A program made the position numbers and the translations under genes. DNA of 64,000 nt from Chloroflexi bacterium 13_1_40CM_65_17. Its GTDB lineage: Bacteria > Chloroflexota > Dormibacteria > Dormibacterales > Dormibacteraceae. The stretch lies in NCBI GenBank assembly GCA_001917815.1, contig MNES01000058.1:1-64000 (forward strand), written 5' to 3'. Below, piece by piece: positions 11,717-48,581 of the stretch. The number at the start of each line of letters is the position of its first letter. Within the stretch, counting starts at the first letter, position 1. Below the pieces are notes generated by a model that was not told the origin of the DNA, did not search any database, and worked only from the letters and a program-made list of their open reading frames with translations.

Positions 11717-11718
11717 AT

Positions 11719-11779
11719 GCTCCCCGCCGTGCGGGGAGCTTCGGCCGCGCCGCGCAGCGGCGCCGCCGGTGAGGGGAGG
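11719..11779. repeat. double-hairpin repeat copy A
   Basis: GCTCCCCGC/GCGGGGAGC (11719-11727, 11731-11739), then TTCGGC, then GCGCCGC/GCGGCGC (11747-11753, 11757-11763), then GTGAGGGGAGG. It fills the gap between the convergent marP and Trm112-like genes and may act as terminator. It is closest to copy F at 34980. Confidence 0.75.
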
Positions 11780-11788
11780 AGCACTGAC

Positions 11789-22896: not shown

Positions 22897-23715
22897 TCAG
22901 GCGGACGGGTAAGTCCCAAACAGCTTGATCTCCGCCGACGCCTCCTCGAGGTCTTTCAGCGCCGCCTCCGCCGCCGCGGGAGCACCCGCTTCCCCGTTGA
23001 TCGAGAAGTCGAGGTAGAACCGGTATTCGAAGGGGCGTCCCAGCATCGGCCTGCTGTCGAGCCGCGTCAGGTTGACGTTGCGCCGCGCGAAGCAGTCGAG
23101 GGCGTGGGCGAGGCTGCCAGGCCGGTGCGCCGCGACAAACGCCAGCGAGCACTTCGAAACTGGATTGCTCTCTGCCGGCCGGGTCGGGCTCCCACGCTCC
23201 ACGACCACGAATCGCGTGCGATTCTCCGAATCGTCCTGGATCGACTCCGCCAGGACGTACAGGCCGTAGCGCTTCGCCGCCGCCCGGCTCGCGATCGCCG
23301 CCGTCCCTGGCTGACGCTGCTCCGCAACCGCTCGCGCCGCGCCGGCCGTGTCATGAAACGCCACCGATTTGATCTGGCGTGAATGCAGGTAGCGGCTGCA
23401 TTGGGCCAGGGCTTGTGGGTGCGAGAGCGCTCTCTCCACAGGACCGGGCCAGCCCAGAAGACAGTGCTGCACAGGCAGCACGTGTTCCCGCACCACCCGC
23501 ATCCCCGGGAGCTCCCAGAGGAGGTCCGACACCTCCTGCACCACGCCCGCGCTGCTGTTCTCCACTGGCAGGACGGCGCAGTCCACCGCGCCCACCGCCA
23601 GTGCCTCGAAAGTCAAGCGAAAAGTCGCATAGCCGACGGCATCAGCGGCCGGGAACAGCGCCGATACCGCCTCGTCCGAGTAGGCGCCCGGCTCTCCCTG
23701 GTAGGCGATCTTCAC
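22897..23715 (-). CDS. pheA: prephenate dehydratase
   Basis: A 272-residue monofunctional enzyme. The catalytic domain (1-185) begins 'KIAYQGEPGAYSDEA' and contains 'LPVENSSAGVV', 'HPQALAQCSRYL' and the catalytic 'ENRTRFVVV' (TRF motif). The ACT domain (about 195-270) has 'AAHRPGSLAHAL' and 'LTRLDSRPM', the phenylalanine-binding GALV and ESRP regions, so feedback inhibition is expected. It converts prephenate to phenylpyruvate. GTG 23715 is the only start that fits the family. It touches the edge of hairpin repeat copy C, which separates it from leuA. It is last in the ilvB-ilvN-ilvC-leuA run. Confidence 0.93.
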   Translation of the reverse strand: MKIAYQGEPGAYSDEAVSALFPAADAVGYATFRLTFEALAVGAVDCAVLPVENSSAGVVQEVSDLLWELPGMRVVREHVLPVQHCLLGWPGPVERALSHPQALAQCSRYLHSRQIKSVAFHDTAGAARAVAEQRQPGTAAIASRAAAKRYGLYVLAESIQDDSENRTRFVVVERGSPTRPAESNPVSKCSLAFVAAHRPGSLAHALDCFARRNVNLTRLDSRPMLGRPFEYRFYLDFSINGEAGAPAAAEAALKDLEEASAEIKLFGTYPSA

Positions 23716-23770
23716 CCTCCCCACCTCGTGGGGAGGTCGGCTCGCGCGCAGCGCCAGCCGGGTGGGGGGA
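23716..23770. repeat. double-hairpin repeat copy C, abutting the pheA start codon
   Basis: CCTCCCCA/TGGGGAGG (23716-23723, 23729-23736), TCGGC, GCGC-rich core, then CGGGTGGGGGGAG. It fills the leuA-pheA gap. Read in the pheA direction it ends in GGGGAGG directly before GTG. Confidence 0.75.
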
Positions 23771-23783
23771 GTCGAGTTTCCAA

Positions 23784-28377: not shown

Positions 28378-28481
28378 ATCGATAGGCCTCGGCTTTGAAT
28401 GGCTCCTACGGACGGCCCGCTTCGGGTGCCGGTAGAGTTTGCCTCTCGCGGATGCACTCACTCCCATCTCCCCACCCTTTA

Positions 28482-28503
28482 CCCTCCCCACGAGTGGGGA
28501 GGG
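28482..28503. repeat. hairpin repeat copy D before leuC
   Basis: CCCTCCCCA/TGGGGAGGG (28482-28490, 28495-28503) around CGAG. The right arm GGGGAGGG lies 10 nt before the leuC ATG and can serve as its ribosome binding site. This is a single-hairpin form of the family. Confidence 0.65.
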
Positions 28504-30500: not shown

Positions 30501-30554
30501 ACCTCCCCACCCGGCTGCGCTGGCGCAGCCGACCTCCCCGCATGGCGGGGAGGT
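30501..30554. repeat. double-hairpin repeat copy E between convergent leuD and ilvD
   Basis: CCTCCCCACCC, GGCTGCGC/GCGCAGCC (30513-30520, 30523-30530), then ACCTCCCCGC/GCGGGGAGGT (30532-30541, 30545-30554). Reversed, it matches copies C and G. It ends at the ilvD stop codon and could terminate both transcripts. Confidence 0.75.
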
Positions 30555-32221
30555 TACGGCTTGAGGATCGCTCCTTCGGAGGCCGACCCGACCAGCAGCG
30601 CGTAGCGAGCGAGCACGCCCTTGCGGTAATTCGGCTCCGGAGGCGTCCAACCCTTCAGGCGGGCGGCGATGTCGACGCCTTCGACCGCGAGCTTCCGACT
30701 CTCGACGTCGATGTCGATGATGTCGCCGTCCTGGATGGCGGCAATCGGGCCGCCCACCGCCGCCTCCGGAGCGACGTGGCCGATCATGAAACCTTGCGTC
30801 GCGCCGGAGAAGCGGCCGTCAGTGACCATCGCCACGGACTCGCCCAGTCCCTCGCCGACGATGGCCGCGGTGACCTGCAGCATCTCGCGCATCCCGGGCC
30901 CGCCACGCGGGCCTTCGTAGCGGATGACCACGGTATCGCCGGGCTTGATCTTGCCCCCGGTAACCGCCGCGAAAGCGTCCTCTTCGCGGTTGAACACGCG
31001 AGCCGGACCGCGATGCGAGGTCGGCGTGTGCTGCGTCACCTTCACCACCGAGCCGTCGGGGGCCAGCGAGCCGCGGAGCACGACGAGGCCACCCTCATCG
31101 CGTAGAGGTTTCGACAGCGGCGCCACCACCTCCTGGCCCGGCGTCTCGCGCACCGTCTCGCATTCCTCACCGAGAGTGCGGCCCGTGACGGTGAGCGCGT
31201 CACCGTCGACGAACCCGCCTTCGATCAGCCGCTTCGTCAGCACTCCGATGCCGCCCGCTCGATGAAGCTCGACGGCGGCGAAGCGGCCGCCCGGCTTGAG
31301 GTCGCAGAGCAGCGGCGTGCGCCGGCTGATCCGGTCGATATCGTCGATGTACAGCTCCACGTCGACCTCGCGCGCGAGGGCGAGCAGGTGCAGAACGGCA
31401 TTCGTCGAGCCACCGCTGGCGGCCACCGCGGCGATCGCGTTGTCGAACGCGCGGCGCGTGAGGATGCGCGAGGGCCGGAGGTCCTGCTCAAGCACCGCAA
31501 GCACCAGCCGTCCCGCCGCCTCCGCCGCCCGGGGCTTGTCGGGGTCCATGGCGGGGATGGAGTTGAAGCCGAAAGGCGAGAGCCCGATCACCTCCATGAC
31601 CATCGACATCGTGTTGGCCGTGTACTGGCCTCCGCACGCACCCGGCCCCGGACAGGCGACCGCTTCCAGCTCCGCGAGGTCAGCATCGCTCATCTTGCCC
31701 GCGGCGACGGCGCCTATGGCCTCGTACACCTCGCCCACGTTGACCTCGCGCCCGCGAAATCGTCCGGGCATGATCGAACCGCCGTAGAGAAGGATGCCCG
31801 GTCGGTCGAGCCGAACAAGAGAGATGGCCGAAGCCGGGATCGTCTTGTCGCATGCGCAGATGGCGCACATCGCGTCGAACTGATGCCCGCGACCGACCAG
31901 CTCGATCGAGTCCGCGATCACCTCGCGGCTGACAAGGGAGGTCTTCATGCCCTCGCTGCCCATCGTGATGCCGTCGGAGATCGCGATGGTGTTGAACTCC
32001 ATCGGGTTGGCGCCCGCCGCGCGGATGCCGGCTTTGACCGGAACCGCCAGCTCGCGCAGACCGAAGTTGCACGGCATGGTTTCGAGCCAGCAGTTGGAAA
32101 CACCGACAAACGGCTTCTCGATGTCGGCTGCAGTCAGCCCGATCGCATATAGAAAGGATCGTGCCCCGGCACGGTCCCGTCCCTGATACAGCGACCGGCT
32201 GGGCAGCTCACGAGGCGGCAC
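30554..32221 (-). CDS. ilvD: dihydroxy-acid dehydratase
   Basis: A 555-residue enzyme of the IlvD/Edd family. Cluster cysteines are in '[14 protein letters not shown]', '[11 protein letters not shown]' and '[19 protein letters not shown]'. '[21 protein letters not shown]' near the C-terminus holds the catalytic Ser region. It dehydrates dihydroxy acids to the 2-oxo acids of valine and isoleucine. The start is GTG 32221, 8 nt after a TAGACT -10 (32235-32230). An N-terminal extension of 187 codons in the same frame is only a shadow of the divergent epimerase gene. Confidence 0.95.
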
Positions 32222-32229
32222 GATTTGGA

Positions 32230-32258
32230 AGTCTAGCTCGGGCGGGAGCAGGTAAGCT
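32230..32258. promoter_or_regulatory. divergent -10 elements of ilvD and the epimerase
   Basis: Minus strand TAGACT (32235-32230) is 8 nt before the ilvD GTG. Plus strand TAAGCT (32253-32258) is 8 nt before the in-frame ATC 32267 of the epimerase. Both would give very short or no 5' leaders. Confidence 0.45.
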
Positions 32259-32266
32259 GTCGCGTC

Positions 32267-33259
32267 ATCACCAAGAAGTCCGCACCACAAGCAACGCCCA
32301 CCAGCGTCCGCGTCGCGGTCACAGGCGGAGCGGGCTTCATCGGCTCGCACACCGTCGAGATGCTCGTCGCCGCGCAGGCAAAGGTGCTCGTCATCGATGA
32401 CAACAGCCATCCCTGCGGGGAGCCGCTGCCGTCGGAGGTCGAGGTCGTTTCCGCCGATTGCGGCTCTGAAGCCGCGCGCAAGGCACTTGTCACTTTCAAG
32501 CCTGACGTGGTGCTCCATCTCGCTTCCAAGGGCGGCGTGCAGAAGGCCGCGCGCGACCCGGGCGACCACGTGAAGATGAGCGTCGCTAGCACGGTCGGGC
32601 TGTTCGATTCCGCCATCAAAGCCGGCGCGGCCCGGATCGTGACGGCGTCCTCGGGCGGAACGATCTATGGCGAAGGCGCGAAGCTGCCGGCTCGAGAGAT
32701 CCACAAACCGGCCCCGCTTTCCGCATATGGCGCGGCCAAGCGGGCGGAAGAGATTTACATGGCCGCGCTTGGGTTGCGGCACGGAATCTCGACGCTCGCG
32801 CTGCGCTACGGCAATGTTTACGGCCCACGCCAGGATGGCACCGGCGAGGCCGGCGTGATCGCCATCACCTGCTACCGCTTGCTGGAGCGGGCCGCTCCGC
32901 GCGTCTACGGCGACGGCGGCCAGACCCGCGATTTCATCTATGTGAGCGACGTCGCGGCGGCCAATGTGGCCGCCGTCTTCGGGCGCGTCGCGGGAGAGTT
33001 GAACATCGGCACGGGGCGCGAGACGAGCGTCAACCAGATCGTCAAGCGTCTCCTGGCGGAATCAGGCCGGCACACGAAGAGCGAGTTCTTGCCCGCGAGG
33101 GAGTTCGAGGTTCGCCGGGCGTGCCTCAACCCCGCACGCGCGAGTCGCTACCTGCACTGGAAGGCGAAGGTCTCCATCAACCACGGCCTGGAGCAGACGT
33201 GGTCGTGGTTTCGCAAGCGCCACTCGGCCCAGCGGGTGGCGACGCTGGGCCTGCCCTAG
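32267..33259 (+). CDS. NAD-dependent epimerase/dehydratase (SDR, GalE-like)
   Basis: About 330 residues of the extended SDR family. '[15 protein letters not shown]' is the NAD-binding GxxGxxG, 'HLASKGG' is the usual HLAA region, and '[11 protein letters not shown]' is the catalytic Tyr-x3-Lys. '[13 protein letters not shown]' and '[12 protein letters not shown]' are typical of UDP-sugar 4-epimerases. Its nucleotide-sugar substrate is unknown. The N-terminal strand must be encoded upstream of ATG 32360, yet the frame has no ATG, GTG, TTG or CTG there. Candidate starts are ATC 32267 or GTC 32264, close behind a TAAGCT -10; a sequencing error is the alternative. The stop shares CTAG with ctaG. 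Confidence 0.83.
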
Positions 33260-34026
33260 AACCGCCACGTAAGGCGCGCGCGATCCGCCAGGTGCTCGCC
33301 GCCGAACCAGCGGAAGAAGACGGCAAGCGCCGCGACCGCCATCGTTGCTTTGCCGAGGACCATGAGCACCGCGCCGGCGAGCGTCTGGTCTATGAGCGCG
33401 GTCAACCCGGAGACAAGCCTTGGCGCGTTGACGTAGAACTCATAGAAGGGGACGCGCGAGAAGAGAAGGACGAGGGCGACCCCATCCTGCGGGAGGGTCG
33501 CGGCGAGCATGTACAGGAGCTTGATGCCGGGTGACAGCTTCCAGCGGGCGTAGGCGGACGTCGCCTCCAGGATCGGCCAGTAGAGCAGCAGTCCCGCACC
33601 GATGAACGTGAGGTGCTCCACAATGTGCAGCGATTCCGAGCGCAGGGTGGCGTCATAGAGAGCCGGAAGATGCCAGCCGATCATCACGCCGGCTGCGACG
33701 ACCTGCGCAGGAATCGGCTCCGTGATGGCTCTCACGAACGGGAGGCCGGCGAGCAGACCGGCCATCCGCCGCGACAGGCCCAGAAGCATGAGGGGCGGCG
33801 CAACGAACCCGAGCAGGACGTGCTGCAGCATGTGGATGCTGTCGAGGTAGTGGTCGCTGATGGTGTCGATCGGAGTCTCGAGCGCGGCCCACAGCGTCAC
33901 CAGCCCCAGGCCGAAGTAGAACGTGTGCTTCGGCTGGGCGTCGTCGACCTGCCGTGCCAGCCAGGCGTGGCCAAGGAACAGCGCCGCAAGGCCCGCATAG
34001 ACCGTAGGATCCAGCGGCCAGCTCAC
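33256..34026 (-). CDS. ctaG: CtaG/caa3-type cytochrome oxidase assembly protein
   Basis: A 256-residue protein with about seven membrane helices, of the caa3_CtaG family (unrelated to the Cox11-type CtaG). 'SIHMLQHVLLGFVAPPLMLLG' and 'WHLPALYDATLRSESLHIVEHLTFIGAGLLLYWPI' carry the conserved histidines thought to bind copper. It helps assemble the CuA or CuB centre of the oxidase. The GTG start is 17 nt after the stop of the upstream membrane protein. It is the last gene of a four-gene copper/oxidase cluster (36482 to 33256) on the minus strand. Confidence 0.9.
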   Translation of the reverse strand: MSWPLDPTVYAGLAALFLGHAWLARQVDDAQPKHTFYFGLGLVTLWAALETPIDTISDHYLDSIHMLQHVLLGFVAPPLMLLGLSRRMAGLLAGLPFVRAITEPIPAQVVAAGVMIGWHLPALYDATLRSESLHIVEHLTFIGAGLLLYWPILEATSAYARWKLSPGIKLLYMLAATLPQDGVALVLLFSRVPFYEFYVNAPRLVSGLTALIDQTLAGAVLMVLGKATMAVAALAVFFRWFGGEHLADRARLTWRF

Positions 34027-34043: not shown

Positions 34044-35453
34044 TCACCCTCCGGCTGTAATCGGCTGGGCGAGGATCCACAAGCTGGTCATGGTGTACAT
34101 GACCATCAGGAGGAGCATCGGATACTGGCTCAGCAGCGCGCGCTGGGCAGTACGGAATCTCTCGCCTGCTTTGAGATGTGACAGGTACACCGCGATGACG
34201 TGCCCGATGACGATCAAGATGATCTGGGCGAACCATACTGTCGACGCCTGGGCGAGCGCGAAGCTTGGCTTGTAGCCCACGACCGCGGGCAGAAGATGCC
34301 AGCCCTTGGCGAGCGGGTCGTCGAGCAGCGGTATCAAGGCCTGCGACTGGACCATCACATAGTTGTAGTTGTGCGCGGCGTTGTAGACGAGGGCGATGGG
34401 GACCAGTGTCAGCGCGAATGCCGTGGCGGTCGCCTTCAGGTCGACCTTGCGATTCCCGAAGTAGATCACCATCTCCATGAAGGCGATGAATATGAGAAGG
34501 AACGCCGCCGTGACCAGAAGCAGCCCGACCGTTTTGAAGACGAAGAAACCAAACGCGCCGTAGGGCTGCCATAAAGGCTCTAGGGCGACGCTGAAGTTTT
34601 GCCACGCCGGCGTGACCTCGATGCCGTCGAACGCAAGGGTGCTCAGCATCAGGATCACGAACACGACCCGGTCCCAGCCTGTTGGGCTCGGTTGGAGCAT
34701 GCCGACACCCCACGGCCGGATATAGACGGCGGTGATGATGCCGCCGTCGTCGCGCGCAGCCTCGACCGGTCCGAACCTGCCCACGATGCTAAACAGCACC
34801 GTGAAGGCTTCGCAATGCTCGAGCCACGCTTCGCGGCCGTACAGGATCATGCCCGCGAGCGTCACCGCGGTGTAGACGGCCGCCAGTGTGCCCAATATCC
34901 ATGGGCGGTTGGCCATCCCTGTGGTGAGCTCGAGACACGCGAACCCGAGATAGGCGGCCCCCGCCGGCCAGATGCCAAGGCTCCCCACCCAGTGGGGAGC
35001 TCCGCCGCGAAGCGGCGGCGAGGGGAGGCCCAATCTCTTCATTACGTCGTAGATCGCGGCCCAGGGATTGAGCAGATACCACAGGTTGCCGACGAGCCCC
35101 GACACGATCACAGTCGCCGCCCAGAAGTAGATCCAGGTCAGGTATTCGGCCGGGTTGCGCGTGGCGTCCGGAGATCCGAAGAGGCCGGTGATGATGATCA
35201 GGGTCAATCCGAGCACCCCGATCAGCCCGCCGATGATACGCGGCCAGGGCGAGCGTGCGATGGGGAGCAGAAACGGCAGCGCGCGCCGCGGGTACTGGAT
35301 CGCCTCGGCGCCCACCTGGTCGCCCGCGAACAGGACGACAAGCACGAACGACACGACCACCACGCCGCCCGCCGCAAAGAGATAAATGGCCAGCGACGCG
35401 GGCAGGTCATACCGGACGCCGAACCCGTGAAGCAGGACTGCGGTGGCGGCCAT
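34044..35453 (-). CDS. multi-pass membrane protein of the CtaG cluster, interrupted in frame by a repeat
   Basis: A 469-residue protein with about eleven to twelve membrane helices, starting 'AATAVLLHGFGVRYDLPASLAIYLF'. It resembles proteins labelled 'fenitrothion hydrolase' in actinobacterial genomes, a label from one phosphotriester-degrading isolate and doubtful as a general function. Conserved His in 'LLHGFG', 'AAHNYNY' and 'GHVIAVYL' could bind metal or heme. The gene lies between a cupredoxin and ctaG, so a role in copper or oxidase maturation is more likely. DNA 34980-35028 is hairpin repeat copy F; it encodes 'LPSPPLRGGAPHWVGS' in a loop without breaking the frame. ATG 35453 overlaps the cupredoxin stop. 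Confidence 0.7.
   Translation of the reverse strand: MAATAVLLHGFGVRYDLPASLAIYLFAAGGVVVVSFVLVVLFAGDQVGAEAIQYPRRALPFLLPIARSPWPRIIGGLIGVLGLTLIIITGLFGSPDATRNPAEYLTWIYFWAATVIVSGLVGNLWYLLNPWAAIYDVMKRLGLPSPPLRGGAPHWVGSLGIWPAGAAYLGFACLELTTGMANRPWILGTLAAVYTAVTLAGMILYGREAWLEHCEAFTVLFSIVGRFGPVEAARDDGGIITAVYIRPWGVGMLQPSPTGWDRVVFVILMLSTLAFDGIEVTPAWQNFSVALEPLWQPYGAFGFFVFKTVGLLLVTAAFLLIFIAFMEMVIYFGNRKVDLKATATAFALTLVPIALVYNAAHNYNYVMVQSQALIPLLDDPLAKGWHLLPAVVGYKPSFALAQASTVWFAQIILIVIGHVIAVYLSHLKAGERFRTAQRALLSQYPMLLLMVMYTMTSLWILAQPITAGG
34980..35028. repeat. double-hairpin repeat copy F inside a coding region
   Basis: GCTCCCCAC/GTGGGGAGC (34980-34988, 34992-35000), then CCGCCGC/GCGGCGG (35002-35008, 35012-35018), then CGAGGGGAGG. 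The same layout as copy A at 11719, but here it is read through as part of a membrane protein. Confidence 0.8.
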
Positions 35454-35809
35454 CAGCTCACCACGAGGTGCCCAAGGTGCGCGCTGGTCGATTCCCACTC
35501 GATCTCGAAGTCGCCGGTGTTCACTGCCTGGAACGTTTGCGCGACCACCTGACCCACCTTGGTATCGAAGTGGATGTCGTAGCCATGCAGGTGCACCTCG
35601 CCGTCGGTGTCGCTGGTGACGCTGATCGTCACGGTGTCGTTCTTATGAGCCGTGAGGTCGCTCGGCGACATCGACTTGGCGCCGGTCACCGTGACGTCGA
35701 GCGTCACCGGCTTGCCGGCCGGATTCTGGTCGGCGAAGATGAGGATCCCACCGATGGCGATGAAAATCACGACGACGGCGACCACGATGGGTACGCGATA
35801 GCGATTCAT
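35453..35809 (-). CDS. membrane-anchored cupredoxin-like protein
   Basis: A 118-residue protein with one N-terminal membrane helix (about 6-25) and a cupredoxin-like beta-sandwich. 'AHKNDTVTISVTSDTDGEVHLHGYDIHFD' and the C-terminal 'FEIEWESTSAHLGHLVVS' are typical. Several His residues ('HLHGYDIH', 'SAHLGH') could bind copper, but the Cys ligand of type 1 sites is missing, so it may hold copper differently or not at all. ATG 35809 follows GGAGAC. It is the second gene in the cluster leading to ctaG and is coupled to the next gene by a TGATG overlap. Confidence 0.75.
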   Translation of the reverse strand: MNRYRVPIVVAVVVIFIAIGGILIFADQNPAGKPVTLDVTVTGAKSMSPSDLTAHKNDTVTISVTSDTDGEVHLHGYDIHFDTKVGQVVAQTFQAVNTGDFEIEWESTSAHLGHLVVS

Positions 35810-35855
35810 GAAACGTCTCCTTGCAAATTTGCGATGCGCGCGCGAGCGCGCCGGA

Positions 35856-48526: not shown

Positions 48527-48574
48527 ACCTCCCCGCTATGCGGGGAGGTCGGCGCGCAGCGCCGGGTGGGGAGG
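48527..48574. repeat. double-hairpin repeat copy G before a dehydrogenase gene
   Basis: ACCTCCCCG/CGGGGAGGT (48527-48535, 48541-48549), then GGCGC/GCGCC (48551-48555, 48559-48563), then GGGTGGGGAGG. The final GGGGAGG (48568-48574) is 7 nt before the TTG start at 48582 and is the only Shine-Dalgarno candidate. Confidence 0.75.
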
Positions 48575-48581
48575 CACGAGT

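Follow-up and report, generated by a model that had tools for sequence, protein, structure and literature searches.

A high-copy palindromic repeat of Dormibacterota read in frame in a membrane-protein loop and in the linkers of other proteins

The window analysed here is a stretch of 64,000 nucleotides from Chloroflexi bacterium 13_1_40CM_65_17 (contig MNES01000058.1). On its minus strand, positions 34044-35453 encode a conserved membrane protein of 469 amino acids, and a palindromic repeat at 34979-35029 is read in frame within this gene at about residues 141-158. The gene specifies a strongly conserved multi-helix membrane protein, and its neighbours are a CtaG-like gene (33256-34026) and a gene (35453-35833) that is weakly cupredoxin-like. 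Neither Pfam nor NCBIfam gave a match for the protein, PDB gave none that was significant, and a fold search returned no match at E ≤ 0.001. Its closest named relatives are in Candidatus Dormibacterota MAGs, many of them deposited as Chloroflexi, and there are relatives in MAGs that bear the labels SAR202, Rhodospirillaceae, Nitrospinota and Patescibacteria. The orthologue in Candidatus Dormiibacter inghamiae (locus L097, genome G008) contains one in-frame TGA.

In the orientation of the family model the repeat copy lies on the plus strand, so it is antisense to the gene, and it is read in phase 1. Two hairpins are seen both in the sequence and in the predicted fold, namely hairpin 1 at 34980-35000 (GCTCCCCAC-CCA-GTGGGGAGC) and hairpin 2 at 35002-35018 (CCGCCGC-GAA-GCGGCGG), and they are followed by the tail CGAGGGGAGGC at 35019-35029, for which the family consensus is GGTGGGGAGG. 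The copy scores 53.4 bits (E 1.1e-8) with the family covariance model in its own genome, a score that is partly given by construction since the copy is one of the 19 model sequences. The predicted fold of the mRNA-strand copy has an energy of -31.8 kcal/mol (z -3.1), and 1 of 200 shuffles was as low. An earlier note on this DNA had described a repeat at 34970-35040 inside the gene; the copy is genuine and the frame is open, but the extent of the repeat is 34979-35029. According to that note the hairpins must form in the mRNA, which is a prediction.

The minus-strand frame of 34044-35453 stays open across the repeat, and its translation includes ...DVMKRLGLPSPPLRGGAPHWVGSLGIWPAG...; the residues at the place given in that note read LPSPPLRGGAPHWVGS. 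The host protein matches its orthologues over the whole length with an identity of up to 81%, which bears out the claim that the repeat is read without breaking the frame. Judged from this open and conserved frame in MAGs, the insert would be translated as part of the host protein. An AlphaFold2 model (43 sequences, mean pLDDT 89.6) places residues 141-153 as a coil between the helix at 130-140 and those at 154-158 and 162-176, with a pLDDT of 72-80 in the repeat block compared with more than 90 in the neighbouring helices. The repeat thus lies in a loop between helices, as had been proposed.

Five other copies were found in the window with the covariance model, so that six copies start at 11718, 23715, 28466, 30501, 34979 and 48527. 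Those at 11718-11780, 23715-23771 and 48527-48575 are on the plus strand, and on the minus strand there are a short copy with a weaker match (28466-28503) and a copy (30501-30554) that has its end next to the stop codon of the gene at 30554-32782. The only known RNA families detected in the window at gathering score were three tRNAs. In the whole genome (2.5 Mb in 98 contigs, 84% complete), the model built from 19 copies gave 77 matches at E ≤ 0.01, some of which are the two strands of one place, and merging left about 68 distinct places within the stretches examined. A count made independently of the covariance model found 60 hairpins of the form CTCCCCN{5,10}GGGGAG, compared with 2 for the reversed pattern.

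The consensus of the family consists of hairpin 1, CCTCCCC...GGGGAGG (with the variant GCTCCCC...GGGGAGC), a hairpin 2 that is hypervariable in length and sequence, and the tail GGTGGGGAGG; in some copies the first arm can pair with the tail. Among the 19 copies, 12 of 21 pairs are changed on both sides and 91.5% of cells pair, and the covariation score was reached by none of 500 shuffles. Over 140 copies the core measures 46-66 nt, with a mode of 61. Most copies have terminal inverted repeats, the two ends carrying CCTCCCC and GGGGAGG. A T stands two bases before the model start in 72% of copies and the bases past the model end are weakly conserved, which suggests that the model misses a few bases of the true element. 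All six frames are free of stops in 70% of the 140 copies compared with 30% of mononucleotide shuffles. The core length divided by three leaves a remainder of 1 in 75 copies, 0 in 38 and 2 in 27, and is therefore not biased to multiples of three.

Misassembly, a pseudogene or chance resemblance might be invoked, given that the genomes are MAG assemblies and that assemblers can be confused by short repeats. Against this, the frame is open along a whole-length orthologue match of up to 81% identity, independent genomes carry copies at the same loop, and the covariation in the family is strong. Considering the pattern counts, the covariation and the orthologue evidence, we reject chance or artefact as an extremely unlikely explanation.

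Model matches occur in 35 of the 42 genomes of the window's family, with a maximum of 125 in one genome. A stricter search of 151 genomes of the phylum gave matches in 3, all in the window's family; the kinship of the 128 match-free genomes that it leaves unlisted is not visible there. The repeat family appears to be new and restricted to a lineage within one Dormibacterota family. A plasmid search with one copy gave two weak matches. Genome G005 is poor in copies, with 29 matches versus 97 in G001 and 125 in G004, and lacks copies common to its relatives, a pattern that looks like loss of copies in its lineage. At loci L228, L254, L223, L220 and L248, two or three copies stand in tandem with a period of about 74-84 nt.

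How the element moves was approached through PF01797, the Y1 transposase domain of RAYTs, to which the transposase search was confined. This domain was detected in 1 of the 42 family genomes (G016, with no copies of the repeat) and in none of the copy-bearing genomes; the same search was positive in 5 of 14 control genomes. RAYT-mediated mobility is accordingly not supported. No target-site duplication above baseline was found beside 140 copies. GTAG tags at the two ends numbered 1 and 1, and CGTC tags 4 and 3, of 140, compared with 2 and 13 in a control window.

The host gene was found in 43 of 61 genomes. Of 30 orthologous loci that were aligned, most have a loop of about 23-24 residues and 25 have no copy in it. 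Full copies are present in the window's own genome (locus L040), G004 (L042), G001 (L062) and G024 (L044), and the loop of G003 (L041) contains similar residues that are probably the remnant of a largely decayed copy. G005, which is of the same genus as the window genome, has an ordinary loop. Orthologues in other genera have a shorter loop that lacks the stretch, with G024 as the exception, which agrees with the earlier claim of an in-frame insertion. It had also been noted that distant orthologues with the same residues minus the DNA repeat would contradict this claim; in the loops aligned, none was found. In a separate set of 33 named loci (496,615 bases), which partly come from the same genomes as the orthologue set, the model gave 21 matches, or about 16 places after strand merging by hand count, and three of these matches (L071, L093 and L074) lie in the host-gene loop.

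In a tree built without the loop, L093 with a copy is sister to the empty L072 (100/100) and L074 with a copy is sister to the empty L078 (100/99), and the presence or absence of a copy requires three changes. The full copies fall into three classes of orientation and frame, antisense phase 1 in the window's genome, antisense phase 0 in G024, and sense phase 0 in G004 and G001. Judging from the sequences, two gains in the loop, one in G024 and one in the window's genus, are well supported, and three gains are likely because there are three such classes; the copies of G004 and G001 may share one gain. Host residues (about 5-11, by reading the alignment) are missing beside the loop copies, so these were either not clean insertions or were later trimmed.

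A different history would be a single ancestral insertion in the genus, after which recombination among copies, or gene conversion, inverted the inserted copy, overwrote it or trimmed it. Such a history would account for the copy or remnant in four of the five same-genus genomes that have the gene, the inverted-repeat ends permit inversion in place, and the tandem copies in DnaX (see below) are more alike within than between genomes, as concerted evolution gives. However, G024 belongs to another genus and has its own copy next to an empty sister, G015; ancestral loop residues are kept in G005 and missing in G001; and, by our reading of the alignment, the window's genome differs from G001 and G004 in the point of insertion and in which host residues are missing. 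We regard a single insertion as possible but rather unlikely. Insertion into this loop was probably recurrent, since the four copy-bearing genomes fall into three orientation and frame classes.

The membrane-protein loop is not the only protein segment that contains the repeat. At least 10 of the 68 copies in the window's genome are in frame, in seven genes and mostly in interdomain linkers or loops. Nine of them passed a two-sided in-frame coding test, in which a codon score was compared with a threshold set by hand, and a tenth was found later; at least one copy (E2, L299 825-884) escaped the test. Apart from the host gene, the sites are the DnaX linker (two tandem copies), the pyruvate dehydrogenase E2 linkers (three copies), the linker of an E3-E1alpha fusion, an oligopeptide permease-ATPase junction, a LysE-type transporter and a protein with two ThyX-like stretches. 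In-frame places number 4 of 50 in G004 and 2 of 34 in G001, in samples that are the better-scoring part of the 125 and 97 matches and that include the known loop copy. The other cases are acyl-CoA dehydrogenase in both genomes, and ArgC and the tail of ribosomal protein L15 in G004.

When 30 loci were fetched per gene, in-frame matches at E ≤ 0.01 were found in 13 genomes for DnaX, 11 for E2, 8 for E3-E1alpha and 2 for acyl-CoA dehydrogenase, frequencies that are not those of random genes, these four having been picked for copies already seen. Many E2 matches and some DnaX matches are weak (<40 bits), and at ≥40 bits the genome counts fall to 8 for DnaX, 3 for E2 and 6 for E3-E1alpha (hand count). 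Three of 20 DnaX matches are out of the gene's frame, and one E2 match (L313 2819-2868) is seemingly outside the linker. The in-frame copies represent the opposite orientation in phases 0, 1 and 2 and the same orientation in phases 0 and 1, in addition to one weak match in the same orientation and phase 2. In DnaX, the linker copy is doubled in tandem in G000 and G003 and apparently tripled in G035. The suggestion that the repeat is a source of protein diversity therefore stands as a statement of history, as the family feeds loops and linkers of several proteins in several genera.

Acyl-CoA dehydrogenase offers the clearest before-and-after case. The segment has 30 residues in G005, G000 and others, and 53 in G004 and G001, so that the filled site of 159 nt exceeds the empty site of 90 nt by 69 nt, or 23 codons. 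This copy is common to G004 and G001 and absent in G005, the sister of G001 in the host-gene tree, which calls for precise loss, transfer or another tree. The trinucleotide CAG flanks the copy on both sides. A candidate 8-nt duplication at this site was dropped, because the bases just outside the model show weak conservation and could be part of the element.

The concentration of copies in the DnaX, E2 and E3-E1alpha linkers, together with the doubling (G000, G003) and apparent tripling (G035) in DnaX, might be taken to mean that the peptide is selected as a flexible Pro/Gly-rich spacer. The peptides nevertheless differ in sequence and are read in more than one frame and in either orientation, other genomes have linkers in these proteins with no copy, and tolerance gives the same pattern. 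An adaptive linker is therefore improbable.

Whether the hairpin itself is maintained can be judged from pairs that differ between genomes. The tandem DnaX copies are identical at 59 of 59 positions within G000 and at 58 of 59 within G003, compared with 50 of 59 between the two genomes. Both changed pairs in this DnaX comparison, and the one changed pair in acyl-CoA dehydrogenase, are compensated, and the amino acids change with them. Among the DnaX copies of G024, G015 and G027, every comparison shows compensation in 2 pairs and a loss of pairing, in one or both genomes, in 2-4. E2a and E2b (G000/G003) have no compensated pair, and the pairs that are open in at least one genome number 2 and 1. 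Of the two DnaX copies of G006/G019, one has no such pair and the other has two one-sided changes of the G-T type. This mixed compensation across genes speaks against one uniform selection for the hairpin. In a codon-shuffle control, z was below -2.5 in 6 of 20 DnaX linkers, 5 of 24 E2 linkers and 1 of 21 loops, and the window's own host-gene loop had a z of -1.91.

These data bear on the idea that the hairpin is kept for a function in RNA or DNA, such as pausing translation near membrane insertion, affecting mRNA stability or binding a protein, with the peptide as a by-product. The stable predicted fold (z -3.1) is in line with it, as is the compensation of all changed pairs, despite an amino-acid cost, in the G000/G003 DnaX copies (2 of 2) and in acyl-CoA dehydrogenase (1 of 1). 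On the other hand, E2a and E2b are uncompensated, compensation is mixed in the DnaX of G024, G015 and G027, and the host-gene copy of G003 is largely decayed. Moreover, template switching at hairpins is described as a process that can yield compensated pairs without selection (PMC8794818), so the compensated cases could have come from it or from conversion between copies. We find retention for such a function quite improbable. A tentative and unlikely extension is that hairpin-templated correction or conversion rewrites both stem arms, so that linker amino acids would change together and the linker would double as a unit. Coupled evolution of this kind fits DnaX (59/59 within G000 and 50/59 between genomes, both changed pairs compensated) and acyl-CoA dehydrogenase (one compensated pair).

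The reading that we prefer, and consider very likely, is that 34979-35029 is a non-autonomous, high-copy palindromic element that was inserted into the gene and kept since it is in frame in a tolerant loop. An element with a core of 46-66 nt would insert into a protein gene and would be retained where the net change is a multiple of three and the loop is tolerant. Because the copies are GC-rich and mostly stop-free in six frames, they could be translated in several frames and both orientations to give short peptides rich in Pro, Gly, Ser and Arg. Purifying selection would purge insertions that break the frame or damage the protein core, leaving survivors mainly in loops and in linkers between domains, and several species have been colonised at the same sites. 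Since the core length shows no preference for multiples of three, the in-frame survivors would be a filtered sample. We infer that the inserts are nearly neutral.

In-frame palindromes have precedents. Rickettsia palindromic elements (RPE) are described as short palindromes that lie between genes and also in frame in genes of conserved proteins (PMC2229807, PMC10969869), and the Dormibacterota palindromes resemble them in this in-frame insertion into protein-coding genes. In the same descriptions, RPE are 105-146 bp (or about 150 bp) and have an open frame for a conserved peptide; unlike them, the Dormibacterota element has a core of 46-66 nt that is read in several frames and both orientations, so that it is set apart by these descriptions, and the host phylum differs. 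GTAG/CGTC REPs are reported as high-copy short stem-loops that are mostly intergenic, with some in genes including replication genes, and different REPs were recorded at about the same recB site in two Xanthomonas species (PMC3733652). The CGTC class is said there to have no dedicated transposase. The Dormibacterota family is likewise made up of high-copy short stem-loops that are mostly outside genes (about 10 of 68 in frame), but it has no end tag above the control rate and no Y1 transposase gene in copy-bearing genomes. It works like RPE and GTAG/CGTC REPs and, by the features tested, is a member of neither. Bacterial MITEs, for example ERIC/RU-1 and Correia elements, are also described as fused in frame to ORFs (PMC2229807). 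They share with the present repeat a small size, non-autonomy, inverted ends and possible in-frame gene fusion; unlike MITEs, the Dormibacterota copies are shorter, have two internal hairpins and have no known parent transposon, the search being that for PF01797. As to a target-site duplication, none was detectable over 140 copies, and the acyl-CoA dehydrogenase copy has the 3-nt CAG on either side.

In-frame palindromes as such were already known. What appears to be new is this repeat family, the lineage in which it occurs and its repeated arrival in the same linkers; our literature search found no report of intragenic palindromic repeats in bacterial interdomain linkers. In-frame insertion of palindromes is best known from Rickettsia, and these results extend it to a repeat family that has neither the usual tags nor the usual transposase, in uncultured soil Dormibacterota, in which a mobile hairpin of this kind would repeatedly have become part of proteins. 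The linkers of DnaX and of the pyruvate dehydrogenase complex, and one membrane-protein loop, contain copies in several species and in different orientations and frames. Together they form a natural series in which one can ask by what route a mobile hairpin turns into protein, at what rate it decays, and if amino-acid changes are coupled through mutation directed by the hairpin.

The E3-E1alpha linker also merits comment. E3 (dihydrolipoamide dehydrogenase) and pyruvate dehydrogenase E1alpha form one open frame in most genomes of the family, including the window's own (L179:2203-4749, minus strand, with Pfam domains for this copy) and loci L359-L388. We rejected the idea that the repeat made the fusion of Lpd and E1alpha, as most family genomes have the fused frame whether or not they carry a copy. 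At L374 and L377 (G063 and G028), this linker contains a second repeat-like peptide (PPLPTGERAGERG and similar) that has no model match and comes perhaps from another repeat family.
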